Source: Peptococcaceae bacterium BRH_c8a (GTDB taxonomy: Bacteria > Bacillota > Desulfotomaculia > Desulfotomaculales > Desulfallaceae). From it: a DNA stretch of 64,000 nt. The stretch is from contig LADP01000003.1 of NCBI GenBank assembly GCA_000961575.1, forward strand, positions 124,001-188,000, in the 5' to 3' direction. The notes beneath the pieces are model-generated. The model did no database searches and had not been told where the DNA came from. It was given only the letters and a program-made list of their open reading frames with translations. Each line of letters opens with the position of its first letter. The first letter of the stretch is position 1. This document shows positions 1,065 to 15,899 of the stretch, piece after piece. The position numbers and the translations under genes were made by a program.

Positions 1065-2009
1065 TTATGGTTGTTGAGATTTCTGCATGCGGGTTTCATC
1101 GCTTTGTTCTATTTGGTGCTGCATGGTGAAGGGTTCCGCTTGAATGTTATCTTCTTGGTCATATTCATGTTTCCCCTCCATCACGGACGTGTCATTTGTA
1201 AGTGAATTGCCAGGGGTATTCATCATACCTCGCTGAGTCTCGGTATTCATATCCGGGTGCACTTGGACCATGCCCAAAAGCTCCTCCGGTGTAGTCCCTG
1301 CCCCTTCTAACGCCAATCTGATAGATGTATTCTTCAGCTGCTCGGCAGTAAGGGATAAACCATTGGACTTGCTTTGTTCCAGCACATAATACTGGCTGGC
1401 CGAAAGACCCAATTCACCGGCCTTCGCTATAAAACCCTTGTCATGGCGCGACATGACCATGAAAGGGGTTTTTTCACCGCTGTTCATACTGCTCAAAATA
1501 GCCTCTTTAAGTTTCTCCTCATCAATGTAGTGACTGCCGTCCTTTGTCATATCGGCAAAACTCATAATTATAATGCCATTGCCGTAATCATCCAGAACAC
1601 TTGCTTTGGATGCAATTACCGAAACCGCCTGGTATATATCATTGCCTTTAATGTCCGGTGCTGTCAGTTGACTGGTTCCTTTATATTTCATATCAGTGAC
1701 TCTGTTATCTCTGTCCAGCCAGAACTCTGCGCTGCTCTTATCCAGGTCTAAACTGAAATAGGCTTCCGCTGGTTGGGAAATAAGCGGGTTGGCCAATCCG
1801 AAAACTAAAAGCACAATTGCTGCGGCCGCAATCATCGTTTTCCACCCGGAAATGTTCCAGTGACGGGCTGAAGATAGGTTTTTGAGAAATAATACCTGGC
1901 CGACCTGATGACTTTTTCTGCGGGGTATGTAAATAAATTGCCCGTCTTCCGCATAAGTTACAGAACTGCGGCCATTAAACGACACGATAATTACTCTGGT
2001 CTTCTCCAT
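1065..2009 (-). CDS. rsgI: RsgI-like anti-sigma-I factor
   Basis: Membrane-anchored anti-sigma factor for SigI. Residues 1-50 match the RsgI N-terminal domain (RVIIVSFNGRSSVTYAEDGQ, then FIYIPRR). One transmembrane helix lies at about 58-78. An extracellular alpha/beta domain follows (AYFSLDLDKSSAEFWLDRD, typical of RsgI), then a hydrophilic Gln/Glu/Met-rich C-terminal tail. No carbohydrate-binding module is visible, unlike the polysaccharide-sensing RsgI proteins of cellulolytic clostridia. The start is ATG at 2009 with GGAGAGAAGG upstream; the frame is open further upstream, but that overlaps sigI. sigI ends inside the start of this gene (about 35 bases), so the pair is coupled. Length 314 aa. 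Confidence 0.85.
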   Translation of the reverse strand: MEKTRVIIVSFNGRSSVTYAEDGQFIYIPRRKSHQVGQVLFLKNLSSARHWNISGWKTMIAAAAIVLLVFGLANPLISQPAEAYFSLDLDKSSAEFWLDRDNRVTDMKYKGTSQLTAPDIKGNDIYQAVSVIASKASVLDDYGNGIIIMSFADMTKDGSHYIDEEKLKEAILSSMNSGEKTPFMVMSRHDKGFIAKAGELGLSASQYYVLEQSKSNGLSLTAEQLKNTSIRLALEGAGTTPEELLGMVQVHPDMNTETQRGMMNTPGNSLTNDTSVMEGKHEYDQEDNIQAEPFTMQHQIEQSDETRMQKSQQP

Positions 2010-2790
2010 AATCCTTCTCTCCTTGATAACCATAAAAATTGGTAAAACGTTTAAGCGGTGACAATATGGGGTCTGATAAGATGAGGGTAATGGCAATAAT
2101 GTATTTTCTGCCGCGCTCTATTATTTTTCGACTTAAACCTGTGGATGCACATAATAATTTAACCGGGACTTGACCATATTTTTGTAAATAATCCAACATA
2201 TCTGGGTTTCGGGACAATACAATCGCCGCTTGAAGCAGATTTTCCCGGGTGTCCCGGTGTTTGGGGGATACTTCCGGCAGTTGGCCAATATCTATTCCAT
2301 ATCCAACCAATAAACCTTGGTAGTAGGTTATTATGCCGACCAGGTTTTCCTTGGTCTGGTCATCATTATAGAGGCTTATTGATTTGGCATTGATTCCTGT
2401 TTTAAGCTCATTTTTTTCTTCAAAAGTTGAGGACAAGACTTCTTTTTCGAACTTGGCTTGATGCCTGAAGTAATCAATTAACCTTCTTTTTATTACAACC
2501 CCCGCAAAAGTGCTGAATTTGACATCCCCCGCAGTATCAAAGGCATCTATGGCTTCATTAAACGCAAGTAATCCAATGCTTAATTCATCATCGTTTTCCC
2601 AAATTAGATACCTTTTACAAACCTTTGAGCATATCTTGGCTATAAAGTGATAATGCTTTTTAATCAGCTTCTCACGACTTAGCGGATCCCCTTTCTGCGC
2701 GCTGGTTATTAGAGTATTTAAATTAAATAAAAACAACTTAATCAACCCCATTATATTTATCGAGAGCAAAACGAATTTTTGGGTAGGCAC
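1975..2790 (-). CDS. sigI: RNA polymerase sigma factor SigI
   Basis: Sigma-70-family factor of the SigI group. The region-2-like core is clear at about residues 45-110 (IAKICSKVCKRYL, then ELSIGLLAFNEAIDAFD, then FSTFAGVVIKRRLIDYFRHQ). The C-terminal region has a helix-turn-helix-like segment (VKLLCASTGLSRKIIERGRK). It is paired with its anti-sigma factor RsgI, which follows with overlap. The start is uncertain: GTG at 2790 gives 271 aa and ATG at 2751 gives 258 aa, and neither has a good ribosome-binding site. In other Firmicutes SigI responds to heat or envelope signals; the trigger here is unknown. Confidence 0.88.
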   Translation of the reverse strand: MPTQKFVLLSINIMGLIKLFLFNLNTLITSAQKGDPLSREKLIKKHYHFIAKICSKVCKRYLIWENDDELSIGLLAFNEAIDAFDTAGDVKFSTFAGVVIKRRLIDYFRHQAKFEKEVLSSTFEEKNELKTGINAKSISLYNDDQTKENLVGIITYYQGLLVGYGIDIGQLPEVSPKHRDTRENLLQAAIVLSRNPDMLDYLQKYGQVPVKLLCASTGLSRKIIERGRKYIIAITLILSDPILSPLKRFTNFYGYQGEKDYGEDQSNYRVV

Positions 2791-2806
2791 TTCCCGAAAA
2801 GTTAAA

Positions 2807-2832
2807 AAACCCTCATTATTGAAGGAGGGTTT
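2807..2832 (-). terminator. Hairpin with T-tract just upstream of sigI
   Basis: AAACCCTC and GAGGGTTT form a stem, followed on the minus strand by TTTTTT. It lies only about 17 bases before the GTG of sigI. Since the preceding gene already has its own terminator at 2964-2990, this one may act as an attenuator in the sigI leader or as a second terminator. Confidence 0.5.
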
Positions 2833-2963
2833 CTTTACTTTAGCAGTTTAATTTAACAATTTTGTCTCGTTTATGTGTCATTTTTGTAAACATTTTAGCA
2901 AAATTTAACTTTTGCAAAGATCATTCACCGCCCGCTTTTTTACCCGAGGTCAGTCGGGATTTT

Positions 2964-2990
2964 AAAAGGGGTGATTAGCTCACCCCTTTT
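2964..2990 (-). terminator. Rho-independent terminator of the 3007-3501 gene
   Basis: Perfect stem AAAAGGGGTGA / TCACCCCTTTT with a short loop, 17 bases after the stop codon, followed by T-rich sequence on the minus strand. Confidence 0.8.
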
Positions 2991-3006
2991 GGACTACCCG
3001 TTATAT

Positions 3007-3501
3007 TTAACTTCTCATCATGCCACCTTTTTCGGATTTCATTTTTGCGCCGGCCTGATGCATATCATCCGCATTGGGCATTGATTCATGCTGCCCAGCC
3101 ATCTTGTTATTCCTTGACATATCCTGATAAATCTCGTTCATTTTCTCCTGGTTTTGTTTATGCGTTTCTGCCATTTGCTCGGAAGTCTTGTCACCCATCA
3201 GTTGGGGCCCCGTTTTTGAGGCTTGGCTACCTTTTACACCGGCATCGCTGTGCTTACCCTTTTCTTTGGCGGTGTCTTGCCCGGCTTTCTGGCCGGCGGA
3301 ATTCTGTACCTTATGCTGATTGCTGTCCATTGCCTTAGTCATCGCATCCGAATCTTGCTGGTTCATATAAACCTGATGTTGGACTGATTTCGCGGGTGCA
3401 GTTTGACGTGTGCTGTCAAAAGTACCGGCGCTGGCAACACCAACCATTGCAGCACTCAGAGCTACAGTGCTTAGAGCAAGGAAAAACTTATTCTTCTTCA
3501 T
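3007..3501 (-). CDS. Exported hydrophilic Met/Gln/Lys-rich protein
   Basis: Not recognised. The first 25 residues form a classic signal peptide (MKKNKFFLALSTVALSAAMV, cleavage near ASA). The rest is low-complexity and charged, rich in Met, Gln, Lys, Asp and Gly, with no Cys and no predictable fold. It ends in KMKSEKGGMMRS. GGAGG-type sequence lies ahead of the ATG at 3501. It is a single-gene unit with its own terminator. Met- and Gln-rich exported proteins can be metal-binding or structural spore or envelope components, but nothing in the sequence settles this. Confidence 0.65.
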   Translation of the reverse strand: MKKNKFFLALSTVALSAAMVGVASAGTFDSTRQTAPAKSVQHQVYMNQQDSDAMTKAMDSNQHKVQNSAGQKAGQDTAKEKGKHSDAGVKGSQASKTGPQLMGDKTSEQMAETHKQNQEKMNEIYQDMSRNNKMAGQHESMPNADDMHQAGAKMKSEKGGMMRS

Positions 3502-3838
3502 TAATGTGCCTCCTTAATTACAACCCATATTTTTGGAAGGTCATTTTCCGGGCCCGGAAACTTACTTCCTCTTGGCATCTATCCTTTCGAAGTCGCGCTG
3601 CGATTTTGGAGGGTGTTAACTGATTATTTTATTAAGCATAGTGTTAATGACCGCAGCCATCCCAAACCGTAAATGAAAAAAACAAGCCGGTCATCGAAAT
3701 CCAGAGAAAAAGTGGATAATGGCAGCGGTTAGGGTAATCTTTGGCCAAATTAATAAGGCTGTGACGTGGAGGTCAACAGCCTTACTAATTTTAATGTTTG
3801 CTTTTTATTGATGTTCGCACGTCTTTAAACAAAGCCAC
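3502..3838. other. Intergenic region with one hairpin
   Basis: This ~340-bp gap holds the promoter and leader of the exported protein gene on its left and the hairpin at 3755-3783 on its right. No open frame with a ribosome-binding site was found in it. Confidence 0.5.
3755..3783 (-). terminator. Terminator hairpin after the Met-repeat protein
   Basis: Stem AAGGCTGTTGAC / GTCACAGCCTT (minus strand, one mismatch), followed by TATTAATTT. It lies about 55 bases after the stop of the 3839-4336 gene. Confidence 0.55.
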
Positions 3839-4336
3839 TTAATTTTTAGTGTTAATCGCCTCTTCCATAGCCGGGCGTACCCGGTTATCACCGGCCATAT
3901 CCCTGATTACCGGCTGCATTTCAGGGAGAGCCATCATTTCGATAAAATTCTTGCGCGCCTCGGGGGTGGACATAATCTGTGACATGGCTTGCCTCATCCT
4001 GGCGTCTTGCATCATGTCGATCATGGACTGCCTCATTTCAGGCTGCTGCATCGCGTCTATCATAGCCTGACGCATTTGCGGGGAACTCATAATATCCACC
4101 ATAGCGCGTCGGTTTTCCTGTGAGCCCATCATATTAGCCATATCGTCCCAATTGGTGGAATCGTGCATATAGTCCATCATGTAACCTTGCCCCTGCCCGT
4201 AACCCGGGCCTGCGCCCGGTCCCGGTGCGGGTTTGGCGTAACCGCCCCCCATCCAATACCGGGGACCGGCCATAGAACCGATCACTAAGCCCAACACAAG
4301 TGTGCCCAGTGCCGCTGCCCACCACCACTTTCTCAT
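3839..4336 (-). CDS. Membrane-anchored protein with Met-rich tandem repeats
   Basis: Not recognised as a named family. An N-terminal membrane anchor (about residues 4-23) is followed by a Gly/Pro/Tyr-rich linker (AKPAPGPGAGPGYGQGQGY). About five degenerate repeats of ~13 residues of the form M-[IV]-D-x-M-x-x-P-x-M-R-Q-A follow, for example MVDIMSSPQMRQA, MIDAMQQPEMRQS and MIDMMQDARMRQA. Such Met-rich helical repeats are seen in some Clostridia envelope proteins and could form a helical stack or bind metal, but this is inference. RBS-like GGAGG precedes the ATG at 4336. Confidence 0.65.
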   Translation of the reverse strand: MRKWWWAAALGTLVLGLVIGSMAGPRYWMGGGYAKPAPGPGAGPGYGQGQGYMMDYMHDSTNWDDMANMMGSQENRRAMVDIMSSPQMRQAMIDAMQQPEMRQSMIDMMQDARMRQAMSQIMSTPEARKNFIEMMALPEMQPVIRDMAGDNRVRPAMEEAINTKN

Positions 4337-4394
4337 ATCAAACCTCCATTCGTTCTTGTAGGGCGTTCTCAGGCTATTTTTTCACCCGCGCTGG

Positions 4395-5048
4395 TTATCT
4401 ATGTATAGCTTGTTTAGCTTTGTTGCGGTACATGGTTTCATCGGCCCGGCACAATAACACATCCGCAGTTTGCCCATCTTCCGGGTACACTGAAATGCCT
4501 GCCGAGATGCCTAATGGATATTTGTTGACCTGCTGCGCAACTGTTTTTTTAATTCTCTGTACCAGGCCGGCGCTTTGTGCTCTTGTTAAACCCGGACATA
4601 AAATCACAAACTCGTCCCCGCCAATACGTCCAACTACATCGGTGGAGCGGACATTGGCTGCAATTGTGTTGGCAATAATCTGCAAGGCGTAGTCCCCTTG
4701 CTCATGCCCGTACCGGTCATTGATTTGCTTGAACTTATCCACGTCAATAAATATTATAGATAGCATTGCACCGCTTTTATCTGCATGCGCAAGGTGCCTG
4801 TGCAGCATCTGAATCAGCATTCTGCGGTTGACCGCACCGGTTAGCGTATCAAAACTGGCCAGGTGGTTGATACGGTCATAAGTATAACCAATCCAAAGTC
4901 CAATGGGAATATAAAGCAAAGTTAATATATAAATAGGCCACATTTTCGGCATCAGGTAGCAGTAAGTGATACAAACAATAGCTATAGCTAATCCAATCAA
5001 GGTACCATAAAACTTACCTTTGTTTCTTTGATTAATTTTCATGTCCAA
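4395..5048 (-). CDS. Membrane diguanylate cyclase (GGDEF)
   Basis: Makes cyclic di-GMP from two GTP. Two transmembrane helices lie in residues 13-55, followed by a GGDEF domain from about residue 62. The active-site loop GGDEF is intact at 143-147, and the metal-binding segment FIDVDKFKQIND is present. The allosteric inhibitory site RxxD is present as RSTD at 134-137, five residues ahead of GGDEF, so feedback inhibition by c-di-GMP is likely. There is no large sensory domain; the short membrane part must sense or anchor. No downstream c-di-GMP effector is visible in this window. Confidence 0.9.
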   Translation of the reverse strand: MDMKINQRNKGKFYGTLIGLAIAIVCITYCYLMPKMWPIYILTLLYIPIGLWIGYTYDRINHLASFDTLTGAVNRRMLIQMLHRHLAHADKSGAMLSIIFIDVDKFKQINDRYGHEQGDYALQIIANTIAANVRSTDVVGRIGGDEFVILCPGLTRAQSAGLVQRIKKTVAQQVNKYPLGISAGISVYPEDGQTADVLLCRADETMYRNKAKQAIHR

Positions 5049-5193
5049 GCCCCCGTAAAAACTAATTTACAAGAAATTTATCAATTTATATTATAGTTGG
5101 TAGTAAAGATTTACTCCTAACGCTTGTTCTTCATATTCCGACAATTTCCTGCAGTAAAAAGACGTTATTGAGGAATGTTCGAAAAAAAGTAAA

Positions 5194-5214
5194 AGCCGGG
5201 AATATAACCCGGCT
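5194..5214 (-). terminator. Terminator after the SHOCT-domain gene
   Basis: Perfect stem AGCCGGG/CCCGGCT with a 7-base loop, followed on the minus strand by TTTTACTTTTTTTC. It lies about 65 bases after the stop at 5279. Confidence 0.8.
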
Positions 5215-5278
5215 AAGCTGGTCTAACAACGATATATTTCTTTAGGATTAAGAAAAGAGTAGTTAAAGCTCTGTTAGG

Positions 5279-5536
5279 TTACCCTCTTAATAAATCCTCT
5301 TTCATGCTGCTGAAATCTTCTTTGGAGATCTCGCCGCTGGCGTATCGTTTTTTCAGGACCAATAGCGGATCCGGTGCATCATATTCGCCAACGGACACTT
5401 TTTTTCTCCGTTCAAACAGGCTTAACCCCAAATAAACCACACCCACTATAATGAGCACCGGCAGGAGCATCGAAAACAGCATAGCTAAACTCCACAGCAG
5501 TGAACTGATGCCGTCGCCAAATCCAAATCCCATCAT
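5279..5536 (-). CDS. Small SHOCT-domain membrane protein
   Basis: An 85-aa protein with one or two hydrophobic helices (about residues 12-43) and a C-terminal SHOCT motif (DPLLVLKKRYASGEISKEDF). SHOCT (short C-terminal) segments are common at the ends of small bacterial membrane proteins; their role is not well known. A run of G just upstream of the ATG at 5536 (GGGGGGTAACTA in minus sense) serves as ribosome-binding site. It is a single gene with its own terminator. Confidence 0.8.
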   Translation of the reverse strand: MMGFGFGDGISSLLWSLAMLFSMLLPVLIIVGVVYLGLSLFERRKKVSVGEYDAPDPLLVLKKRYASGEISKEDFSSMKEDLLRG

Positions 5537-5716
5537 AATTAGTTACCCCCCCTTGGTGGTATTTTTTTTCATAGGTTAATCTTAAAAAAAAATCTTCACA
5601 AATCATTCTCAAAACTTTAACAAATATGTCACAATAAACGACGGAACTAGCAGTTTAAAAAACATTGACGGAGGGTAACATAAATTAACAATTGCTTGGT
5701 AAAGGGGAGTTTCTAT

Positions 5717-6421
5717 ATGGTTTTTCGGTTACGGAACAAAAATGCACGCAAAAAAGCTAAAAAAGAAGTAGCTGCTGAAAGAGAAGTAGTTATAGATAAA
5801 CCTATAAGGGAGCGCCAAGATTTAAAGCAAATTTTAGGTAATGAAAACGCCAATATAGAAAGTATTAGAGTCCGCTATGATTATGAACCGGCTGCCGAAC
5901 TTGCTCCTACCATTAATCAAACATTACAAGCAGAATCGACCAAAAGTTTGGTGGAAAAGGCTATTAATGATACTTTTCTAACTGGTGCCGTGGCGGGAAT
6001 ACTGGGCACGATTATTTTACACATACTTTCTTTTCTATGGCTAAACTTGGGGTTTATTAATACTACAACCATGCAGGTTTCGGGGGAGATTTTCCTTACC
6101 CCAGGTCAAATAAATACTTTGGCGGGGTTTTGGGTTAGTATTTTTGTCCATTTTGTAGTTGGTTCCGCGGGAGGAGTATTGCTGGCTTATTTCATGAGAT
6201 TTGCGGGTTATGATTTTTACTGGATCAAGGGTTTGGCATTAGCAGGGTTTATGCTGTTAATGGGCATGGGGCTTGTCATTGATGTAATGGGTATTGCGCC
6301 CCAAATGCGCCATAATGCCGTAGGAGTATTGTTCCATATTATCAGCTACATAGCTTATGGATTAGCAGTTGCTTATATTCTTTATAAATTTGCCAATATT
6401 AGAAAAGGCTTTAACAACTAA
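5717..6421 (+). CDS. Four-helix integral membrane protein of unknown function
   Basis: 234 aa. A basic N-terminus (RLRNKNARKKAKKEVAAERE) and a hydrophilic stretch of ~90 residues are followed by four transmembrane helices at about 90-115, 132-160, 168-190 and 200-225. The start is ATG at 5717 because AAAGGGGAG lies just upstream; an earlier GTG lacks that signal. The membrane part has the look of YqhR-like Firmicutes membrane proteins, but this is not firm. It stands alone, divergent from the SHOCT gene, and ends at a shared bidirectional terminator. Confidence 0.7.
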   Translation: MVFRLRNKNARKKAKKEVAAEREVVIDKPIRERQDLKQILGNENANIESIRVRYDYEPAAELAPTINQTLQAESTKSLVEKAINDTFLTGAVAGILGTIILHILSFLWLNLGFINTTTMQVSGEIFLTPGQINTLAGFWVSIFVHFVVGSAGGVLLAYFMRFAGYDFYWIKGLALAGFMLLMGMGLVIDVMGIAPQMRHNAVGVLFHIISYIAYGLAVAYILYKFANIRKGFNN

Positions 6422-6456
6422 AAAATTTAGATAACTAAACTCGCATAAGTTACATG

Positions 6457-6483
6457 ATATAGCCCGGATTTTCCGGGCTATAT
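6457..6483. terminator. Bidirectional terminator
   Basis: Perfect stem ATATAGCCCGGA/TCCGGGCTATAT between two converging genes (stops at 6421 plus and 6486 minus), with A/T-rich flanks on both sides. Confidence 0.85.
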
Positions 6484-6485
6484 CT

Positions 6486-6752
6486 TTATTCTTTGCGCAT
6501 TGATTGCTGCGCAGCCTGCTGCTGGTCGAAGGCCGCCTGGGTCATGTTTTCCATTTTAAATTGTGGTTCCTGGCCCTCGACATAGTTGACTCTGTTGGTC
6601 AGGTCCTGCACCATCTGGTCCAGTTTTTTAGTGAAACCCATGTACATCTGCTTGGCCATTGGGTCCTGGGTGCGATTGGCAAAAGTCTGAAATTGGCCAC
6701 TGGACATTTTCAACATGCCTAAAGCTTGATGTAGTTCTTTTCCGACAGTCAT
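6486..6752 (-). CDS. DUF1657-like small protein
   Basis: An 88-aa helical protein. The beginning (MTVGKELHQALGMLKMSSGQ) and the pattern TQDPMAKQMY plus the segment VEGQEPQFK resemble DUF1657 proteins, small proteins often found near spore-related genes (for example with the SpoVA group). RBS-like AGGAGGG precedes the ATG at 6752. No partner gene is adjacent. It is probably made in sporulation, judging from the family's usual context. Confidence 0.7.
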   Translation of the reverse strand: MTVGKELHQALGMLKMSSGQFQTFANRTQDPMAKQMYMGFTKKLDQMVQDLTNRVNYVEGQEPQFKMENMTQAAFDQQQAAQQSMRKE

Positions 6753-6865
6753 GTGAACCCTCCTTTTGTTTTCAATAGTGTTACATAATACAGCTATTTT
6801 TATTATTAGGGTTGGGTATCAAGCATAGTGATTATGTGGCAGGGTATTATAAAAAAGGTGATATC

Positions 6866-8740
6866 ATGAAACGTTTCGGTCTTTATTTATCTCTTGCATT
6901 AATTTTGTTTTTAATACTTGCCCCGCTTGTTGCGGTAAAGGAAGCTTTCAGCACGGGCAAGATACCCCGGGTTATCGACAGGCTGCACCTTAATACCGGC
7001 AACACCACCAGGTTGACCGAACAGGACTGGCCTTCAATGCAGCGTCTTGTTCTGAAGCAACGATATGACGGTGTTCAGGCGGATGCGGTGGTAGTGGTGG
7101 ATGCGGATGCCTGGCCGTTGGCATTGGCCTGCCAAAGTTTCAGTGCGGAACCATTAAAACTGCCGGTCATTTTATTTAAATCTACCGAGACCGCAATTAA
7201 TGAAGTCGTTACCAACATAAATAAGTGGTCACCACGGGGTTTGAACGAGTTTAACGGGGCAGATGTGCTGCTGGTCGGCGAAAATACTTCATCATTACAA
7301 AATGAACTGCAGCAAGGGGGACACAGCACTTTAGTTCTGACCAGCCCGGATATTTATAAGGCTATTGCATCTGTCAGGGATACGCTGCTAACAGCAGGCG
7401 CTAATAAAAGACAGGATCTAATTGTAGTTGGAGCCGACAACGTTAAATATGCTCTACCTGCGGCTGCCTGGATGGCCCGCCGCGGCACCCCGGTGCTGTT
7501 GGTTGAACGAGATAAGATACCGGATGCGACAAGCAAGGCCCTTGACGAAATTACCTCCAACAACATATATGTTTTAGCTCCCCCCAGCCAGGTAAGCAAC
7601 AGTGTGGTAAATGAGCTGCAAAAATGGGGACAAGTTACCAGAATAGGCGAGGAAGACCCGGCCGCGCATGCAGTATTCTTCGCCAGGTTCTACGATGAAA
7701 CAAACCGCTTTGGCTGGCAGGCCACCCAGGATACAGCCGAGGCGGCCCGTCACTACCTGCTGGGTTCAGTGACAGAAGACTGGCTTATGTTTTTAGCAGG
7801 AAACCAGCTATTTTCGGGCTCCAATTTTGGCCCTTTGTTATTTACGTCAGCGGACAAGCTGCCGGCCCAAACGGAAAAATTTTTATGGTCCACCACGCCG
7901 GACTGGTGGGTTACACCGGCCGAGGGGCCATTTAATCATACTTGGATTCTAGGCGAACCAACACAGATCTCCTATGCCGTGCAAGGCCGGGTGGATTTTA
8001 TTCAAGAACTGCGGGATTATCTGGACCAGGGTGACCAGGGTATTAGCGGCATTGAAGCCCTGGCCCTGGTGTGGTTTGCCCTGGCACTGGCTTGTGCCAT
8101 TTGGACCTGGTTTCATCTGTCCACCAGGTTAACTCAGATAGCTCCCTTTATGAAACTATCCTGGTTGTTAGTCATGTTGGTATTGGGCCCTGTTGGCCTG
8201 TGGTCATATTACATATGTTACCGCGGCTATAACCACCAGGTGGCCCTGGGCGAATTCCCCCGCCCGCTTTGGGTGCAAGTATTGTCAGCTACACTGGGAA
8301 CCGCTGGGTTTGGTATGTCCACAATGGTTACCGTGGCATTTTTGCTAGCCTATTTTGGCCTCCCACTTATTATTTTACAGGGTCCGTTGTTTTGGCTGGG
8401 CAGCCCCATGACCCAGTCCATTTTATGGTCGTACTTGGCGGCGCTGGCGGTTAATATTTTTATTTTTGTGCCCTTAATGCTTAGATCCAAGGAATCATCC
8501 ACTTACCGGGACACTGTACGCGACAACGCCCTTACAGTCTTTTTTAGTATGACTGCCATCAGCATCGGTATGATGGGGGCTATGTGGCTCATGCAGATGC
8601 GCGGTTTAACCGTGATGCCGGAAGAAGAGAACCTCATTTGGTGGGCTACCGTATGGGGTGCCAATGTCATCGGGCTTATCACCGGATACATCGGCAATTG
8701 GCCGCTGCTGGTAAGGGGCCGTAAGATCGGCACCATGTAG
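6866..8740 (+). CDS. Membrane protein with cell-wall-binding-repeat-like ectodomain and DUF4396-like helices
   Basis: 624 aa. The start is ATG at 6866, after AAAAAAGGTG. A signal anchor (residues 5-25) leads into a ~365-residue external part with alpha/beta units resembling cell wall binding repeat 2. The recurring motif, a hydrophobic strand plus loop plus helix, appears at VILFKSTETAINEV, VLLVERDKIPDATSK and LLFTSADKLPAQTE. From about residue 395 there are 6 or so transmembrane helices, the last ones with a DUF4396-like pattern (NALTVFFSMTAISIGMMG). It is the first gene of a three-gene plus-strand operon; the next gene carries the same ectodomain motif. Function unknown; a surface or envelope role is likely. 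Confidence 0.7.
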   Translation: MKRFGLYLSLALILFLILAPLVAVKEAFSTGKIPRVIDRLHLNTGNTTRLTEQDWPSMQRLVLKQRYDGVQADAVVVVDADAWPLALACQSFSAEPLKLPVILFKSTETAINEVVTNINKWSPRGLNEFNGADVLLVGENTSSLQNELQQGGHSTLVLTSPDIYKAIASVRDTLLTAGANKRQDLIVVGADNVKYALPAAAWMARRGTPVLLVERDKIPDATSKALDEITSNNIYVLAPPSQVSNSVVNELQKWGQVTRIGEEDPAAHAVFFARFYDETNRFGWQATQDTAEAARHYLLGSVTEDWLMFLAGNQLFSGSNFGPLLFTSADKLPAQTEKFLWSTTPDWWVTPAEGPFNHTWILGEPTQISYAVQGRVDFIQELRDYLDQGDQGISGIEALALVWFALALACAIWTWFHLSTRLTQIAPFMKLSWLLVMLVLGPVGLWSYYICYRGYNHQVALGEFPRPLWVQVLSATLGTAGFGMSTMVTVAFLLAYFGLPLIILQGPLFWLGSPMTQSILWSYLAALAVNIFIFVPLMLRSKESSTYRDTVRDNALTVFFSMTAISIGMMGAMWLMQMRGLTVMPEEENLIWWATVWGANVIGLITGYIGNWPLLVRGRKIGTM

Positions 8741-8752
8741 GGAGGTGGCGTT

Positions 8753-9973
8753 TTGAATTTTAACAGGCGTATGAACCATGTTCGCTGGGGTCTCGGCGCT
8801 GTCACCGCTTTGGCGGTTTTATTGCTGCTGGCGGTATTGTTCTACCGTCCCGATTACTACAAAGCCGAAAATGTAACCAATCCGGCACCGGTGCAAATAA
8901 CCCAAAACACGACCCGGGTGCCCGGTGAAGATGTTTTTCAGGTATCCGCGTCCATTGCACAAATCGTTTACCCGGCCACATTTGCGGATAATAAACCGAA
9001 CGCAGTTATTCTGGTCCCGCAGGGCGACTGGCGGCGTGCCCTGGCGGCAGTTAATCTGATTCATTTCCCTATTGATGCACCAATCCTATTCATTAAAGAA
9101 AATGAGATACCTGAAATAATAAAACAGGAAATCAAGCGGCTTGATCCGGAAGGGCTTTTTGTTGATGGGAATACCAAGGCTTATATAGTAGGTCCCGTTG
9201 AGCAAAAGGTTAAAGACGAACTGCGGGGAATGAAAATTAAATTCAGGCAGTTTGATGCCGTTAATGTGTATGAGTTGGCCGCTATGATTGACCAGTACCG
9301 GGCAACCATCAATTCCGACCATACAGATATGGTGATGATAGCTAATGAGAACGCTCCGGAGTTCTCCATATTCAGCGCCTCCTGGACTGCCCATGCGGGC
9401 AGCCCGACGTTTTTTGTTACGGATAATGAGGTACCTGAAGCCACTAAGATAGCTTTGAAACGCCGGGCTCAAGATGCATTTATTTACCTGCTGGGCAGTG
9501 AAGATGTGATATCAGCCGAAATTGCCGATGAACTGGCCCGGTATGGTCATGTGCAGCGTATTCCGGGTACAGATCCTTTTGGCATGTCCACCGGTTTTGC
9601 GGGCTATGCGGACTTTGGGCCCAACTTCGGATACTGGGTGGCCAAAACCATTCGCATGTTCGGTTGGGGCATCGCCGAAGCAGGCCATAATTTTATCTTG
9701 GTTAACCCCGCCCAGCCGGAAATGGCCGTGCCGGCGGGCATTCTTAGTCACCGGGGAAAACACGGGCCCATGCTTTTGGTGCAGGAAAATGCTATTCCAG
9801 AACCGGTGATGCGCTACCTGAAAATAGTACAACCCACTTACCTGAGCAGCCAGGAACAACTTTTTAACTTTGGCTGGATTATTGGCAGCCCGTCTGTAAT
9901 TGGTGAACAGGTGCAGATAGAAGCAGATAAACTATTGCAAGTTAAAATGCCTGAAAGTAGGGTTAAGGAGTAA
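8753..9973 (+). CDS. Anchored envelope protein with triplicated cell-wall-binding-repeat-like motif
   Basis: 406 aa. TTG start at 8753 directly after GGAGGTGG. One N-terminal membrane helix (about 12-30) is followed by an external region. Three units share a strand-loop-helix signature ending in [ED]-N-x-[IV]-P-E: ILFIKENEIPEIIKQ, TFFVTDNEVPEATKI and MLLVQENAIPEPVMR. Between them lie glycine-rich segments such as AYIVGPVEQ, YLLGSEDVI and WIIGSPSVIG, as in cell wall binding repeat 2 proteins. It follows the 624-aa protein by 12 bases and shares its domain, so the two probably act together at the envelope. No catalytic motif seen. Confidence 0.7.
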   Translation: MNFNRRMNHVRWGLGAVTALAVLLLLAVLFYRPDYYKAENVTNPAPVQITQNTTRVPGEDVFQVSASIAQIVYPATFADNKPNAVILVPQGDWRRALAAVNLIHFPIDAPILFIKENEIPEIIKQEIKRLDPEGLFVDGNTKAYIVGPVEQKVKDELRGMKIKFRQFDAVNVYELAAMIDQYRATINSDHTDMVMIANENAPEFSIFSASWTAHAGSPTFFVTDNEVPEATKIALKRRAQDAFIYLLGSEDVISAEIADELARYGHVQRIPGTDPFGMSTGFAGYADFGPNFGYWVAKTIRMFGWGIAEAGHNFILVNPAQPEMAVPAGILSHRGKHGPMLLVQENAIPEPVMRYLKIVQPTYLSSQEQLFNFGWIIGSPSVIGEQVQIEADKLLQVKMPESRVKE

Positions 9974-9980
9974 ATCGACA

Positions 9981-10448
9981 ATGGCCAAAATAGTTGCTTT
10001 ACTGCCGGATGATGTTGATGTAAGTGCTGTTGACCGGCAATTACAGGCCCGGAACATTTCCAACTACAGGGTTGTTGATGTTGCTGACGATTATGAACAG
10101 CACATCAGGCAAGAAGTCTTTTTAACCAGGCATGAAAAACGAGTAACTATTATCGGAGCACTAATGGGTGCCGCAGCGGGGGCTTTGCTTGTGGCCTGGC
10201 TGCTGCAAAATCATCCCTATGGTTTGGTAATTAGCCCCCTTTGGGCCAATACAATTTATTCATCCTTGTTTGTCGGCACCGGGATGGGGCTTGCCTTTGG
10301 TGCCTTATGGGCCGGGGCTTATGCCATTTCAAGACCGCTGCCCGAGGGACTTTTAGGTCACCAAATGATGATTATATTTTGCGACCCGGCGCAGCTGCGA
10401 GAGGCAAGAAATATAATCAGCCGGTACAACGCAATAAACCTTTTATGA
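9981..10448 (+). CDS. Small two-helix membrane protein of the same operon
   Basis: Not recognised. 155 aa: an N-terminal ~50-residue soluble part (MAKIVALLPDDVDVSAVDRQ), two transmembrane helices with small-residue packing (GALMGAAAGALLVAWLL and GTGMGLAFGALWAGAYAI), and a short soluble C-terminus that may fold with the N-terminal part. The two-helix core flanked by similar alpha/beta halves recalls general-stress-like membrane proteins. It starts 7 bases after the previous stop, so it is in the same operon as the two cell-wall-binding-repeat-like genes. Confidence 0.65.
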   Translation: MAKIVALLPDDVDVSAVDRQLQARNISNYRVVDVADDYEQHIRQEVFLTRHEKRVTIIGALMGAAAGALLVAWLLQNHPYGLVISPLWANTIYSSLFVGTGMGLAFGALWAGAYAISRPLPEGLLGHQMMIIFCDPAQLREARNIISRYNAINLL

Positions 10449-10554
10449 ACATCCAAACTTTGAAGCCATCCATTTTCGACTGTAATATAAGGCAATAAAT
10501 GATTAATTAAACTACTTCGTTGGCATTGCCTCCTTATGAATAAAAGCCTAGTTC

Positions 10555-10632
10555 CTTAGCGTACATGAAGTATGCCCTTTTCTTCGTTTATCGTGGTGCG
10601 GGACGCATGGTAATTCTGACTCCTGAGTCGTT
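10555..10632 (-). repeat. Intergenic repeat mosaic, reverse orientation (modules E and D)
   Basis: Contains, in reverse orientation, the same sequence as the element near 15040-15100 (TTTATCGTGGTGCGGGA, then TGGTAATTCTGA), followed by a short ACTCCTGA module. It fills the gap between the three-gene operon and the 10631 gene. Confidence 0.6.
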
Positions 10633-11293
10633 ATAATTTTTCTAGAATTAACCTGGTGATAAACTCTGCCGCCAGAATATCCTCCAGGGAGTTGCCGCTG
10701 GCGGCGACCACCGAAATTCCGGTACCCAGTTCCCGGGCCTTATCAACGGCCCGTTGAGCAGCAGCCCGTGCCGGAGCATGGCCTTTCTTATGCCTGGTTC
10801 TGGCCACGGTGCCCGTGATTACCGCGGGGGCGCCGGCAGTTAACGCTGCGTCAAAGGCTACCCCCCCGGTGCCCGTGGCGGCGATTAGCACCTTGCCTCG
10901 CAACTCGTAAAGCTTTACCGTTTCGGCCCCTAAATTGGGCAGCACGGCTTTAACGACGGCTCCTGCCCGCTGCAATCCAGCCACAGTTTTAGACATGCCC
11001 GCCAGCCGTTCCTTATCGGAACCTACCCGGGGTTCTCCCACCAGCACTATTCCGACACCCTTTGCCACCGCCAGTTTACCGGCTAGCTGCCCTATTTTGA
11101 ATGGGTTTACAGCCACCGGCGGTGTCGCCTTATCCGGGGCGGCGCCAAAAACAGCCAGCGCGCCCTCGTCCAGAGCGGCTTCCAGGGTGGTGGACATATC
11201 AATGATATCAACAATAACCACTACGTCCCCGCCGGCACCAGCTGCTGCGGCTCCGCTGGCGTTAACGGTCATTTTAACAATCGGTACGGTCAA
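10631..11293 (-). CDS. Conserved hypothetical protein with weak ComB-like pattern
   Basis: 220 aa, very rich in Ala, Gly and Val. The segment VVVIVDIIDMSTTLEAAL has the look of the start of 2-phosphosulfolactate phosphatase (ComB) proteins. The phrases VLIAATGTGGVAFDAAL and AVITGTVARTRHKK also fit an alpha/beta nucleotide- or phosphate-binding fold. The relation is weak and no catalytic set can be confirmed. It stands next to DUF3866 on the same strand but is separated from it by a small plus-strand gene. Ends in the repeat-containing region near 10620. Confidence 0.55.
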   Translation of the reverse strand: MTVPIVKMTVNASGAAAAGAGGDVVVIVDIIDMSTTLEAALDEGALAVFGAAPDKATPPVAVNPFKIGQLAGKLAVAKGVGIVLVGEPRVGSDKERLAGMSKTVAGLQRAGAVVKAVLPNLGAETVKLYELRGKVLIAATGTGGVAFDAALTAGAPAVITGTVARTRHKKGHAPARAAAQRAVDKARELGTGISVVAASGNSLEDILAAEFITRLILEKL

Positions 11294-11375
11294 TTTTTTA
11301 CCCTCGCTTATGGTATAACCATGTTTTAATCAGCATACTTATTTGGTAAATATTACATAGACAAAGGAGAATGAC

Positions 11376-11504
11376 ATGCGTTTATATGTAACCAGAAATG
11401 GATTTTTCTGCTGTGGTACGCCTAGAGAAGTATTAAAAATGCTGGCCCCGCTTTCCGGCACCCGCATTACTTTGAAGGAATACATCCACTCCTTACTGCA
11501 CTAG
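11376..11504 (+). CDS. Small conserved-looking protein, 42 aa
   Basis: A short frame with a strong ribosome-binding site (AAAGGAGA, 5 bases before ATG). The product begins MRLYVTRNGFFCCGTPREVL and ends KEYIHSLLH. It has two adjacent Cys and a balanced composition, unlike a random frame. It sits alone on the plus strand between minus-strand genes and ends 8 bases before the stop of the DUF3866 gene. Function unknown. Confidence 0.55.
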   Translation: MRLYVTRNGFFCCGTPREVLKMLAPLSGTRITLKEYIHSLLH

Positions 11505-11512
11505 GTAAAATT

Positions 11513-12601
11513 TCATTCCTTCCGGCGGTGCCGCGCGGCATAAATGCCTGCTGCTCCGGCCGCCAGGAAAAAGGCGGGATCTTGTTGTGGGGTGCGGCCC
11601 ATTGAGGTAACCTTTACCCCCTTGCTTTCCAGTTCCGTTAACGCTGAGCGGCCGTCCTGTGAAACTAGGGTATGTTTGTCCGGCGACCAGGCTTGCGCTA
11701 TCTGCTTTAAAATTATTTGGGACCAGGACGGGTTGTCTAGATCAGGCAGCACCACCGTGCAGGAAGTGAGGGCTATTTTGCCCAGGGCGGTGGCGGTGTG
11801 GTGGCTTAACCCCCGGTGCCTGTCTCTGGGGTCGGCGAAACTGATCCTGGGTATGGCTACCGGTGTGCCACCCAGGATGTTGACAGCATTGATGATTTCC
11901 CCCTGTTCCACCCCGGTGAACCCATACCGGGACGCGGTGCCCACAATCCCTGGCCCCATTGCTACGATAATCACATCAGCCTTGGCAGCAGCCACCGCGG
12001 TGAGCAGGGCGGAATAAACATTGACCGCTTCCCAGTCACCGCCAAAGGCGTGTCCGCAGGTGATGGTGGCATCCAATAGACTGCATTCTTTTAGCTGGTG
12101 CACAAGGTTGCTTAAATAAATCGGCAGGGCTGCCCCGTCGGTCATTATGTAAACTACCCGGGCCTGGCCATCGGAAGCTGACTTGATACCGGCCGCCGCC
12201 GGAGCCAGCACGCTGTGCAACTCGCCCACGACTACCGGGGTGCCTGCAAGTGAATCCGTGTTGCGGATGCTTTCGGCCCAGGGGCTTTCCGGTTCCTCGG
12301 CGGCCAGTACCTTTACCTGGGCGGGGCTGTAACGCATTTTCATAATATGACCGGCTGCACCGGTATCCCGTTCAGGGCGGGTTAGGTTGGCCATAACAAA
12401 ATGAGCACCGCCGGTTCCCAATTTTTTTGCCACCGCGGTGGTGTTTAAAATAACGTTGTCTCCTACCTCAACCGGGCCGGTCAGTCCATCGTAGTTATAT
12501 GCTTTTTGGTCACCTACGCCCGGTATGGCAGCGAGCAACTCAGTAAGGCCAATTCTTTTGTTTAATATTTGGGTCACTGAACCCTGCCTGATCCTGATCA
12601 A
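11513..12601 (-). CDS. DUF3866 family protein
   Basis: About 362 aa. Recognised by overall pattern: YNYDGLTGPVEVGDNVILNT, HFVMANL, the segment VVYIMTDGAALPIYLSNLV, ITCGHAFGGDWEAVNVYSAL and ADVIIVAMGPGIVGTASRYG, followed by RISFADPRDRHRGLSHHTATA. The family is widespread in Actinobacteria and Clostridia and has no known reaction. Conserved His/Asp residues (FADPRDRHRGLSHHT) suggest a ligand or metal site. TTG at 12601 is preferred because AAAGGAG lies 8 bases upstream; a TTG two codons earlier is too close to it. Downstream of the PepT-like peptidase in the same direction. Confidence 0.85.
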   Translation of the reverse strand: MIRIRQGSVTQILNKRIGLTELLAAIPGVGDQKAYNYDGLTGPVEVGDNVILNTTAVAKKLGTGGAHFVMANLTRPERDTGAAGHIMKMRYSPAQVKVLAAEEPESPWAESIRNTDSLAGTPVVVGELHSVLAPAAAGIKSASDGQARVVYIMTDGAALPIYLSNLVHQLKECSLLDATITCGHAFGGDWEAVNVYSALLTAVAAAKADVIIVAMGPGIVGTASRYGFTGVEQGEIINAVNILGGTPVAIPRISFADPRDRHRGLSHHTATALGKIALTSCTVVLPDLDNPSWSQIILKQIAQAWSPDKHTLVSQDGRSALTELESKGVKVTSMGRTPQQDPAFFLAAGAAGIYAARHRRKE

Positions 12602-12644
12602 AAGCAAAACTCCTTTGATACGATGCTTAAATAGACTTTGGGAA

Positions 12645-12670
12645 TGTCATCCTGAGCGTTAGCGAAGGAT
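12645..12670 (+). repeat. Intergenic repeat module C
   Basis: TGTCATCCTGAGCG followed by TTAGCGAAGGAT. One of at least eight copies in this window of a short dispersed motif with the consensus TGTCATCCTGAGCG-AGCGAAGGATCT. Confidence 0.8.
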
Positions 12671-12704
12671 GCCGCGCAGCATAACAATAAAAATTTATTA
12701 ATCT

Positions 12705-13832
12705 TTATTTTTTATCTTCTCCGGCGGCTTCTTTGATAATAGCCAGCACGTAGGAAGCCACGGCGCTCAGGTCTTCCACCCGGATGAATTCATCAGTGGT
12801 GTGCACTTTTTGCATCGCGATGCCCAGGTTGACGGCTGGAATACCATGATCATTAAACACGTGTGTATCGCTCCCGCCACCGGTGCCGCGAATAATCGGG
12901 TCAAGTCCCAGCTGCTCTGCCGTCCGTTTGGCCAGTTTTACCACAGCGGAATCTCCGGGAACGTGCATGGCCGGGTATATCGTGGCCACATCCAGAAGTA
13001 GTCTCGCACCTGATTCTTGGACTGCTTCCTTTAGGGTATCGCAAATGAGCTGGGTTTGCAGTACGCGCTTTTCGTCCTGCAGGCTTCTTGTTTCACCATG
13101 CAGGGTAACCCTGTCCGGTACAACGTTTATAGCTACACCGCCGGAAATGAGTCCGATGTTGACGGTGGTTTCCTCGTCTATGCGTCCCAACTGCATTTTA
13201 GCCACGGCGCGGGACGCCACTTGGATGGCGTTGATTCCGTGCTCGGGATTGATTCCGGCATGGGCCGCCTTGCCCAGCACTTCAGCTTTAATTTTATCCT
13301 GGGATGGCCCCCTGTTGACAATGGTGCCGGGAGGCCCGTCACAGTCCAGAACAAACCCCATATCAGCGGAAAGCAGGGAAAAATCCAGGTTTTTAGCGCC
13401 GGACAGCCCGGTCTCCTCGCAAATGGTGAAAACCAATTCCAGGTTGCCATGAGCTATTTTTTCTTGCTGCAGTACGGTGACCGCTTCAATCACTGCAGCG
13501 ATGCCGGCTTTGTCATCGGCTCCGAGCACCGTTTCACCTGCCGAGCTGATTATGCCGTTTTCCAGCACCGGTTTAATACCGCGCCCCGGCGTTATGGTAT
13601 CCATATGGGCACAGAACATCAATGTCGGTCCGTTAACGGTGCCTTTCATTCTAGCAATCAAGTTACCGGTTTCCGTGCCGGTTATCTTGGCAGCGTCGTC
13701 AGTAATAACTTCCATGCCAAGACTGGTAAGCTTATGTCTAAGAGTTTCAACCATTTGTCCCTCATGGCCGCTTTCGCTGTCCACCTGAACCAGTTCCATA
13801 AAATTGGACACTAACCGTTTTTCGTTTATCAA
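12705..13832 (-). CDS. PepT-like M20 family metallopeptidase
   Basis: 375 aa aminopeptidase of the M20/M28 type, close to tripeptidase T. Metal-site motifs in order: FCAHMDTITPG, GADDKAGIAAVIEA, CEETGLSGAKN, VLDCDGPPG and the late His in MQKVHTTDEFI. A dimerisation lid domain lies between GKAAHAGINPEHG and VVPDRVTLHGE. TTG at 13832 with AAAGGTGG upstream is the likely start (product MINEKRLVSNFMELVQ); an ATG at 13874 lies before the ribosome-binding site. Releases N-terminal residues from small peptides in the cytoplasm. Confidence 0.9.
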   Translation of the reverse strand: MINEKRLVSNFMELVQVDSESGHEGQMVETLRHKLTSLGMEVITDDAAKITGTETGNLIARMKGTVNGPTLMFCAHMDTITPGRGIKPVLENGIISSAGETVLGADDKAGIAAVIEAVTVLQQEKIAHGNLELVFTICEETGLSGAKNLDFSLLSADMGFVLDCDGPPGTIVNRGPSQDKIKAEVLGKAAHAGINPEHGINAIQVASRAVAKMQLGRIDEETTVNIGLISGGVAINVVPDRVTLHGETRSLQDEKRVLQTQLICDTLKEAVQESGARLLLDVATIYPAMHVPGDSAVVKLAKRTAEQLGLDPIIRGTGGGSDTHVFNDHGIPAVNLGIAMQKVHTTDEFIRVEDLSAVASYVLAIIKEAAGEDKK

Positions 13833-13888
13833 TGTAATACCACCTTTGGCAAGTACTTCCCTTAATATTAGCATAAAATGATGGCTTT

Positions 13889-13953
13889 GGTGCCAGGTGT
13901 TGCAAGTTGAAAGTTGCGTATTTTGCAGCTTTCAACTTGCAACACCTGGCACC
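13889..13953. repeat. Palindromic intergenic repeat A, copy 1
   Basis: A 65-bp inverted repeat with 25-bp perfect arms starting GGTGCCAGGTGTTGCAAGTT and a 15-base loop. It is the same element as at 55965 and 60053 but with the loop in opposite orientation. It lies 15 bases upstream of the longer possible start of the PepT-like gene. Confidence 0.9.
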
Positions 13954-13976
13954 TTACGTTAACGATCCGTTCTTTT

Positions 13977-14015
13977 ATTCTGACTACTGAATACTGACTC
14001 CTGACTCCTGAATTT
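13977..14015 (+). repeat. Intergenic repeat module D, copy 1
   Basis: ATTCTGACTACTGAATACTG followed by ACTCCTGACTCCTGAATTT. It directly follows palindrome A with a short spacer, and the same combination occurs at 15118-15216. Confidence 0.85.
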
Positions 14016-14019
14016 AAAA

Positions 14020-14874
14020 CTATTTGCCAGACTCTTTTTCCCGGCCCAATAGATCCAGGTAGTTAAGTACCGGGTTGGCTGAAATAATCCGGGTTAGAGA
14101 AAACTTTTCGGTAATCACATGCACCAGCAGCACCAGTACCAGGTATCCAACCCGGTAATAGCCATCCAGGGCAACTGCCGCGGTTATGCCTATGACTACG
14201 CCCAGGGTGTTGGAGCCGGCGTCCCCCATCATGGCCCGGGCTTTTAAATCCGCAGGTAAAAAGGCCAGCAAAGCGCCCAGAACTACAGCAACGGGAACGA
14301 TTTCCGGCTGCCCGATTAAAGACGGCAGCATGGCCAGGCAAAGCAGGATAAAAACTTTGCCCGCCCGGCCAGGCCGCAGATCAAACAGGTTTAACAGGTT
14401 TATGGACAGGGCAATAATCAGCGCACTGTCTATTATTCTCCATGGCTGGCCCGGAAAAAGCTGTGCGCCGAGGAAAAGGCCTAAAACTCCGCCCCCCAGC
14501 GCCTTGACGGCACCGGTGGTCAATCTGCCCTTAAGCAGGGCCTTAAAGTGGCCAAGCAGTCCCGATGTATCCCTGGCACCCCAAAAATCGTCCATTAATC
14601 CCAGACAGGTTGCCGCAGCCATAGCAAAGATGTAAAGCTGCAGCATGTCCCCTATGCCGGTAGGTGCTGCAACCAGCAGGGGTAATGAGGCGGGCAGTAC
14701 GGAGATAAAAAAAATAACCCCTGCCGACAGCGGGATATCCAAGCCTTTAAAATTGGGACGAGTAAAACCGCCGCCAACGATCATGGCCAGTACCTTATCC
14801 CGTACCAGCAGGGTCAGGGTAAATGCCAGCCCGAAACCGGCGGCGGCGTATATTGTTTCCGGTACCACTTGCAC
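14020..14874 (-). CDS. MraY-like glycosyl-1-phosphate transferase (glycosyltransferase family 4)
   Basis: 284-aa polytopic protein of the MraY/WecA superfamily, which moves a sugar-phosphate from a UDP-sugar to undecaprenyl phosphate. Visible signatures are LGLMDDFWGARD (catalytic Asp pair), SINLLNLFDLRPGRAGK and the cytoplasmic MMGDAGSNTLG. Around nine hydrophobic helices. It is shorter than MraY (about 320 aa) and lacks a clear HIHH motif, so the substrate may differ. It follows a GT2 gene and lies near steA/steB, suggesting an envelope polymer or division-linked function. Confidence 0.8.
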   Translation of the reverse strand: MQVVPETIYAAAGFGLAFTLTLLVRDKVLAMIVGGGFTRPNFKGLDIPLSAGVIFFISVLPASLPLLVAAPTGIGDMLQLYIFAMAAATCLGLMDDFWGARDTSGLLGHFKALLKGRLTTGAVKALGGGVLGLFLGAQLFPGQPWRIIDSALIIALSINLLNLFDLRPGRAGKVFILLCLAMLPSLIGQPEIVPVAVVLGALLAFLPADLKARAMMGDAGSNTLGVVIGITAAVALDGYYRVGYLVLVLLVHVITEKFSLTRIISANPVLNYLDLLGREKESGK

Positions 14875-15221
14875 AAAATCACCTCTGTATGTATGAAAAC
14901 CAGTATTCAGGAGTCAGGAGTCAGAATTTAGGAATCATGAATCAGAAAGCATTTTTCATAACAATTGTGCACCATAGAGGGCGGCTACCATGACTGTCAT
15001 CCTGTCATCCTGAGCGTAGCGAAGGATCTAGATCTTACTTCGTTCAGAATTACCACGCGTTCCCGCACCACGATAAATGAATACAACTTTCTGGTTGTAA
15101 GCTTTGCGCCGGGCTTTGGTGCCAGGTGTTGCAAGTTGAATTAACTTGCAACACCTGGCACCTTACCGGTTAACCGTTCTTTTATTCTGACTACTGAATA
15201 CTGACTCCTGACTCCTTCTTG
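14875..15221. repeat. Gene-free 347-bp region built from intergenic repeats
   Basis: Reading left to right it holds an inverted D module (14901-14947), a C module with a partly inverted second half (14995-15050), module E (15066-15097, CACCACGATAAATGAATACA), a shortened palindrome A (15118-15162) and a D module (15184-15216). Nothing in it looks coding. It separates the MraY-like gene from the GT2 gene. Confidence 0.8.
15118..15162. repeat. Palindromic intergenic repeat A, copy 2 (short form)
   Basis: The 45-bp version of the element: outer arms GGTGCCAGGTGTTGCAAGTT are perfect, but the inner loop section is reduced to GAATT. Located between module E and module D. Confidence 0.9.
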
Positions 15222-15899
15222 TTACTTAAGCACTGCCACCCGCAATAGAGTCCTGGTAATGTGCCAGAACTGCCTGCCCCGGTGGCGGAATCCTTTTAAA
15301 TCCCGGCCGGTTTCGGCGTGGGTCATCTGTACCGGCACTTCCAGTACCCGGTATCCCAGCCGGGCCGCCTTAATGGTCATGCCTACCTCGACACCGTATC
15401 CTGAAGCAAAAGGATAAACACTGTCCAGCACCTGGCGAGTCATGGCTCTTTGTCCGGAAAGCGGTGATTTCATAACCTGACCGGTAAATACAAGAATCCC
15501 CCAGCGGGCCAAACCTTTAACCAGACCGAAACCACCCTTGCGGCGCGGCGGCGGAAACTGGGCCACGGTCATGTCCGCCCGCCCTGTAAGCACCGGCTCC
15601 AGCAATAGCCCGGCATCGGATGCAGAAGTACCCAAGTCACCGTCCAGAAGCAGGTAAATGTCCGCTGACGCCGATTGTACGCCAATATTAAGAGCCGCTC
15701 CCTTACCGGCGTTTTTTTCCAGGGTCATCACCCTGGCCCCGGCCCGGGCAGCCAATACAGCTGTGTTATCACTGGATGCATCATCTACCACTAATACCTC
15801 TGTAACCGATGGTGTCTTAACCAGCGCCGTTACAGTTTCGAAAATGAATTCGGCTTCGTTATAAGCCGGTACTATGGCGGTTACCTTTTTGTGGGACAT
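15222..15899 (-). CDS. Glycosyltransferase family 2 (DPM1-like)
   Basis: 225 aa. An N-terminal nucleotide-sugar-binding GT-A fold is clear: VTAIVPAYNEAEFIFETV, EVLVVDDASSDNT and the metal-binding motif LLLDGDLGTS. The later segment FASGYGVEVGMTIKAARLGY and VPVQMTHAETGRDLKGFRHR fit polyprenyl-phosphate glycosyltransferases. No transmembrane helix of its own. It transfers a sugar to a lipid or polymer acceptor; the exact substrate cannot be read. Follows steB by 17 bases and is probably in the steA-steB operon. Confidence 0.85.
   Translation of the reverse strand: MSHKKVTAIVPAYNEAEFIFETVTALVKTPSVTEVLVVDDASSDNTAVLAARAGARVMTLEKNAGKGAALNIGVQSASADIYLLLDGDLGTSASDAGLLLEPVLTGRADMTVAQFPPPRRKGGFGLVKGLARWGILVFTGQVMKSPLSGQRAMTRQVLDSVYPFASGYGVEVGMTIKAARLGYRVLEVPVQMTHAETGRDLKGFRHRGRQFWHITRTLLRVAVLK

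Follow-up and report, generated by a model that had tools for sequence, protein, structure and literature searches.

The locus considered here lies in a 64,000-nucleotide stretch of the genome of Peptococcaceae bacterium BRH_c8a (the window) and raises the question of what two related envelope proteins do together when both carry a CWB2 fold, whose only known role is cell-wall anchoring, and one is fused to a DUF4396 membrane domain. The answer favoured, at a little under an even chance, is that these two proteins (P1 and P2) and a third (P3) form a membrane-anchored complex, tied to DUF1657 in spore formers, which deals with a soft metal on the outer side of the cytoplasmic membrane, copper being the likeliest.

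Gene anatomy and fold of the trio

P1, P2 and P3 are three adjacent open reading frames on the forward strand, separated by intergenic gaps of 12 and 7 bases. P1 (6866 to 8740, 624 residues) has an N-terminal anchor at residues ~6-24, a degenerate three-module CWB2 ectodomain (~44-383) and about six C-terminal helices, as judged from hydropathy and a low-confidence model; its DUF4396 domain spans residues 469-620 (8270 to 8725, forward strand). P2 (8753 to 9973, 406 residues, with a TTG start) combines a single N-terminal anchor, one helix at ~12-30 by hydropathy, with a complete three-module CWB2 fold. Directly after it comes P3 (9981 to 10448, 155 residues), a small membrane protein with about two helices by hydropathy. 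This anatomy is firm, and it agrees with an earlier note on this DNA that had described two adjacent related proteins, one with six C-terminal helices and one with a single anchor, followed in the operon by a two-helix protein; the note had missed the N-terminal anchor of P1. Its suggestion of a cell-wall-binding-repeat-like ectodomain joined to a DUF4396-like membrane part is borne out by Pfam, where P1 matched both DUF4396 (52.9 bits, cut-off 27) and CWB2 (26.0 bits, cut-off 24.9). P2 matched CWB2 at 39.5 bits against the same cut-off. DUF4396 was also above its cut-off in all four of the other P1 proteins scanned, and Pfam found no CWB2 match in the P2 of Pontibacter or in the P1 proteins of genomes G317 and G191. 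The Pfam scan of the window's P3 gave sub-threshold matches only, with no family above cut-off and no match to ActD, the Alternative Complex III subunit to which a haloarchaeal P3, that of Halobaculum (locus L070, 11663-12169), was matched at 22.7 bits, below the cut-off of 25.7.

The earlier note had also claimed three copies in each of the two proteins of a related motif, with the form [LF][LF]VxxNx[IV]PE in the second protein. The observation is real: a relaxed form occurs three times in P2 and twice in P1, and either count was reached by none of 2000 shuffles. The strict form is found twice in P2, at 220 and 341, the third copy at 112 being LFIKENEIPE with I replacing V. The motif is the strand-loop-helix part of the CWB2 module. 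The ectodomains of P1 and P2 are homologous over their whole length of ~350 residues, with 24% identity and an E-value of 1e-28 by BLASTP and 9e-59 by profile-profile comparison.

An AlphaFold2 model of P2, made from four sequences and with a pLDDT of 70.7 and a pTM of 0.73 (four further models scored near 50), matched Clostridioides difficile Cwp6, SlpA and Cwp8 with Z scores of 28.9-31.6 over 300-321 residues; the top match had a Z of 31.6 over 308 residues, the next structure scored 5.1, and Foldseek concurred. The same eight CWB2 entries were matched by the model of the P1 ectodomain (Z 20.4-21.8, next 7.2), a poor model with a pLDDT of 48.8, interpreted in its ectodomain only, whose alignment contained P2 rows that may help the match. 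The earlier note had held that its idea would fail if the motif copies differed in fold; as far as these models go, both ectodomains match the same structures and the copies do not appear to differ.

Distribution of the trio and its DUF1657 neighbour

A gene-neighbourhood survey, put forward in the earlier note as a check on the trio, found that the genes stay together. P1, P2 and P3 were kept together in all ten loci with a full-length P1, seven of them in six Bacillota genomes, two on haloarchaeal plasmids and one on a Pontibacter plasmid, and the order P1-P2-P3 was found in 7/7 Bacillota loci. The distribution is patchy. Searches of 113 genomes from the class and 398 from the phylum gave a full-length P1 in three and five respectively (six genomes and seven loci altogether), and a separate search for P3 matched 6 of the 398, namely the five with P1 and a marginal sixth, G449 (9e-4). 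Among 72,556 plasmid records 25 were matched, which yielded the three further trio loci in Halobaculum roseum, Halomicrobium urmianum and Pontibacter actiniarum. The classes of G226 (2/3 genomes matched) and G317 (1/10) gave only members already known. A search of the contigs of named genomes found one trio locus, in a metagenome-assembled genome of Desulfoscipio geothermicus, which belongs to the same family but another genus and carries the trio at 87% protein identity; the trio was absent from the other three genomes of the window's own genus. The window genome and the Desulfoscipio locus can be aligned only over the DUF1657 gene and the trio (6457-10446, 84.6%), which, with the patchy distribution, suggests that four genes may have moved horizontally as a unit. 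A phage or virus origin of the trio was considered and rejected, there being no relative in viral contigs or phages.

Within the genome itself the trio is part of a 9.4 kb block (1068 to 10455) with a second copy on contig C39 at 91.6% identity. The block also holds genes for RsgI-like, SigI-like, GGDEF and SHOCT proteins and, at 3839-4336 on the reverse strand, for a short, Met-rich, GerD-like protein with repeated RQxMxxxM-like units and a GerD core domain match of 40.9 bits (cut-off 29.5).

The DUF1657 gene (6486 to 6752, reverse strand, 88 residues, assigned by Pfam) is divergent from P1. Its equivalent adjoins the trio in 7/7 Bacillota loci, divergent from P1 in five and beside P3 in two. 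The probability of its placement there by chance in all six genomes is negligible, and the family was found in 0/14 control genomes. DUF1657 is, according to PMC10126465, a domain of 2Duf, a DUF1657/DUF421 protein linked to spore wet-heat resistance. The association points to the spore in Bacillota, and it underlies the strongest of the alternatives, that trio and DUF1657 are made in the developing spore and strengthen or organise its membrane, as 2Duf does for wet-heat resistance, with no role in metal handling. The GerD-like gene inside the duplicated block would suit such a complex, as would some CWB2-only relatives without signal peptides, which lie near GerP-like or coat-like genes (named by eye). 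However, haloarchaea and Bacteroidota form no endospores and have the same trio. The likeness to spoVA2mob and 2Duf operons is also confined to the DUF1657 gene present beside the trio at all seven Bacillota loci, as a scan of 13 further window ORFs around the trio (1065 to 15899) found neither SpoVA nor DUF421. Nor was there a clear sporulation promoter in the five divergent intergenic regions; a sigma-G-like pattern occurred in one of them, that of the C39 copy, and was rejected as evidence. A purely spore-related complex is rather unlikely. A metal-handling complex and a spore role may nevertheless both be true.

Two of the CWB2-only proteins that lack a signal peptide, at L066 9511-10722 and L068 9239-10672, have by eye a LysM-like C-terminal stretch and are possible spore-coat proteins.

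Module histidines and copper neighbourhoods

The three CWB2 modules of P2 (9002 to 9193, 9326 to 9496 and 9686 to 9886, all on the forward strand) each carry a conserved histidine. These are His104 in the first (codon 9062-9064), His214 in the second (9392-9394) and His333 in the third (9749-9751), which also contains His312 (9686-9688) and His337 (9761-9763). Among 23 aligned P2 and CWB2-only proteins His104, His214 and His337 were each present in 22, His333 in 21 and His312 in 20; this alignment, of which a 22-row version was also made, includes a partial row for Paenibacillus cellulositrophicus and leaves out G412, Geobacillus CX412 and the near-duplicates G290, G166, G287, G483, G311, G232 and G465. 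In a module-to-module alignment His104, His214 and His333 share one column, at which none of 20 ordinary CWB2 modules from other genomes has a histidine. This near-invariant histidine, at an equivalent position in every module, is a new feature of P2 and its single-gene relatives; P1 has none of the three. In SlpA the core bundle on the pseudo-threefold axis is made of helices, one from each module (PMC8881574), and from the SlpA helix numbering we infer that the histidine-bearing helix end of P2 is that of the core-bundle helix. The model is weak here, with a pLDDT below 50 at 284-312 and 333-337, so that histidine positions in this histidine-rich part are poorly predicted. The P2-like lipoproteins of Alkalihalophilus and Paenibacillus end in an HGGH-type sequence.

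With C. difficile SlpA, Cwp6 and Cwp8 (CWB2, PF04122) P2 shares three modules in one triangular prism, and it differs from them in its one conserved histidine per module and its membrane anchor; the CWB2 of the trio is, moreover, fused to or paired with DUF4396 and present in archaea and Bacteroidota. C. difficile CWB2 proteins bind PSII. By analogy P1 and P2 might link the membrane with an anionic polymer of the cell wall, and the full CWB2 fold of P2 and the Pfam CWB2 matches of both proteins are what such a role would predict. The label 'cell-wall-binding' in the earlier note is right as to fold and family and doubtful as to function. Haloarchaeal and Bacteroidota hosts are without Gram-positive wall polymers, and with the trio occurring in archaea and in one Gram-negative lineage, wall anchoring alone fits poorly. 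P1 and P2 are also both anchored in the membrane already, and the conserved histidines are foreign to all 20 ordinary modules. Wall anchoring is improbable.

A role in copper handling is suggested by the company that DUF4396 (PF14342) keeps. On plasmids DUF4396 genes adjoin genes for cueR, copA, cupredoxin or four-helix copper proteins, and in both such proteins scanned (L075 4809-6749 and L085 5791-7749) the domain was fused to a multicopper oxidase. In the literature searched, a single paper mentions the family by name, in a metal-resistance island (PMC7760498), and the family seems to merit a name as one of copper loci. P1 shares with these copper-locus proteins the membrane domain and its Met-rich helix, SMxxxxxGM, but has a CWB2 ectodomain where they have either an oxidase or a tail rich in His and Met. 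HCxAGD, found in 7/7 of the standalone or oxidase-fused copper-locus members aligned, occurs in 0/10 P1 proteins.

Comparison of eight target stretches with eight control stretches from the same plasmids revealed copper or heavy-metal genes in 8/8 and 2/8 respectively (Fisher 0.0035). Both positive controls were on the Halobaculum and Pontibacter plasmids, which makes the copper association weak for those two trio plasmids; copper-handling genes lie at 3/3 plasmid trio loci, two of which are on plasmids with metal genes in the control stretch too. Further annotated regions were read outside the eight control-matched records. A heavy-metal ATPase and a cupredoxin were found in Hymenobacter monticola and Hymenobacter 5317J-9, a DUF4396-oxidase fusion in R. 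phaseoli, a multicopper oxidase in Paenibacillus Cedars and ArsR only in Deinococcus; the records of Geobacillus CX412 and pSymA carried no annotation.

Among the single-gene relatives of P2, the gene for the Alkalihalophilus lipoprotein directly follows copZ-copA, and the CWB2-only gene of P. cellulositrophicus adjoins a heavy-metal ATPase, with ArsR also in the region. In 5/18 genomes and 3/8 families a CWB2-only gene and a heavy-metal ATPase are no more than 5 kb apart (chance ~2e-4), whereas the other 13 genomes have none within that distance and some have the gene near spore genes instead. At all seven Bacillota trio loci, that of the window among them, no heavy-metal ATPase was found at a distance of up to 10 kb (one contig, that of G111, measures just 14.6 kb); the closest one lies 12 kb away, at the C39 copy. 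The function proposed for the trio is read from its relatives. In a literature search that covered neither subscription papers nor preprints, no title among the matches listed dealt with CWB2 and copper together, and no paper was found for 'cell wall-binding repeat' with 'copper resistance'.

A putative metal-handling complex and its meaning

Three features fit the metal-handling reading, which is the one preferred: the histidine pattern, the membrane domain with its Met-rich helix and the gene neighbourhoods of the outgroups. P2 would be a CWB2 prism of three modules, with its one conserved histidine per module at the same place, which comparison with SlpA puts at the end of a core-bundle helix; together with His312 and His337 the three could make a candidate metal site. 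P1 would be a histidine-poor CWB2 partner, through whose Met-rich DUF4396 helix the metal could be passed on or sensed at the membrane, and P3 a further, small partner in the membrane. Joined to the DUF1657 gene in spore formers, the unit may there serve the spore envelope. The least probable alternative is an envelope sensor, in which the P1-P2 pair would detect a surface signal and exert control by way of a regulator associated with it. In its favour, the duplicated block holds SigI/RsgI-like and GGDEF genes, and two-component genes lie beside two CWB2-only genes (by eye); against it, regulators do not accompany the trio consistently at the other loci.

A wider proposal, which is decidedly tentative, is that the CWB2 prism serves as a metal-binding scaffold across bacteria and archaea, with a three-histidine copper site on the pseudo-threefold axis coupled to the Met-rich DUF4396. 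The trio would then represent an undescribed extracytoplasmic copper-handling complex, recruited with DUF1657 by spore formers. If metal handling by the trio is correct, a domain routinely annotated as 'cell wall-binding repeat' would be a metal site in this lineage and many annotations would mislead; DUF4396 would gain a function, and a mobile envelope module would be linked to the tolerance of metals and perhaps also to the resistance of spores. A conserved CWB2-DUF4396 trio common to archaea, Bacteroidota and spore formers needs an explanation beyond wall anchoring even if it proves to have no metal role.
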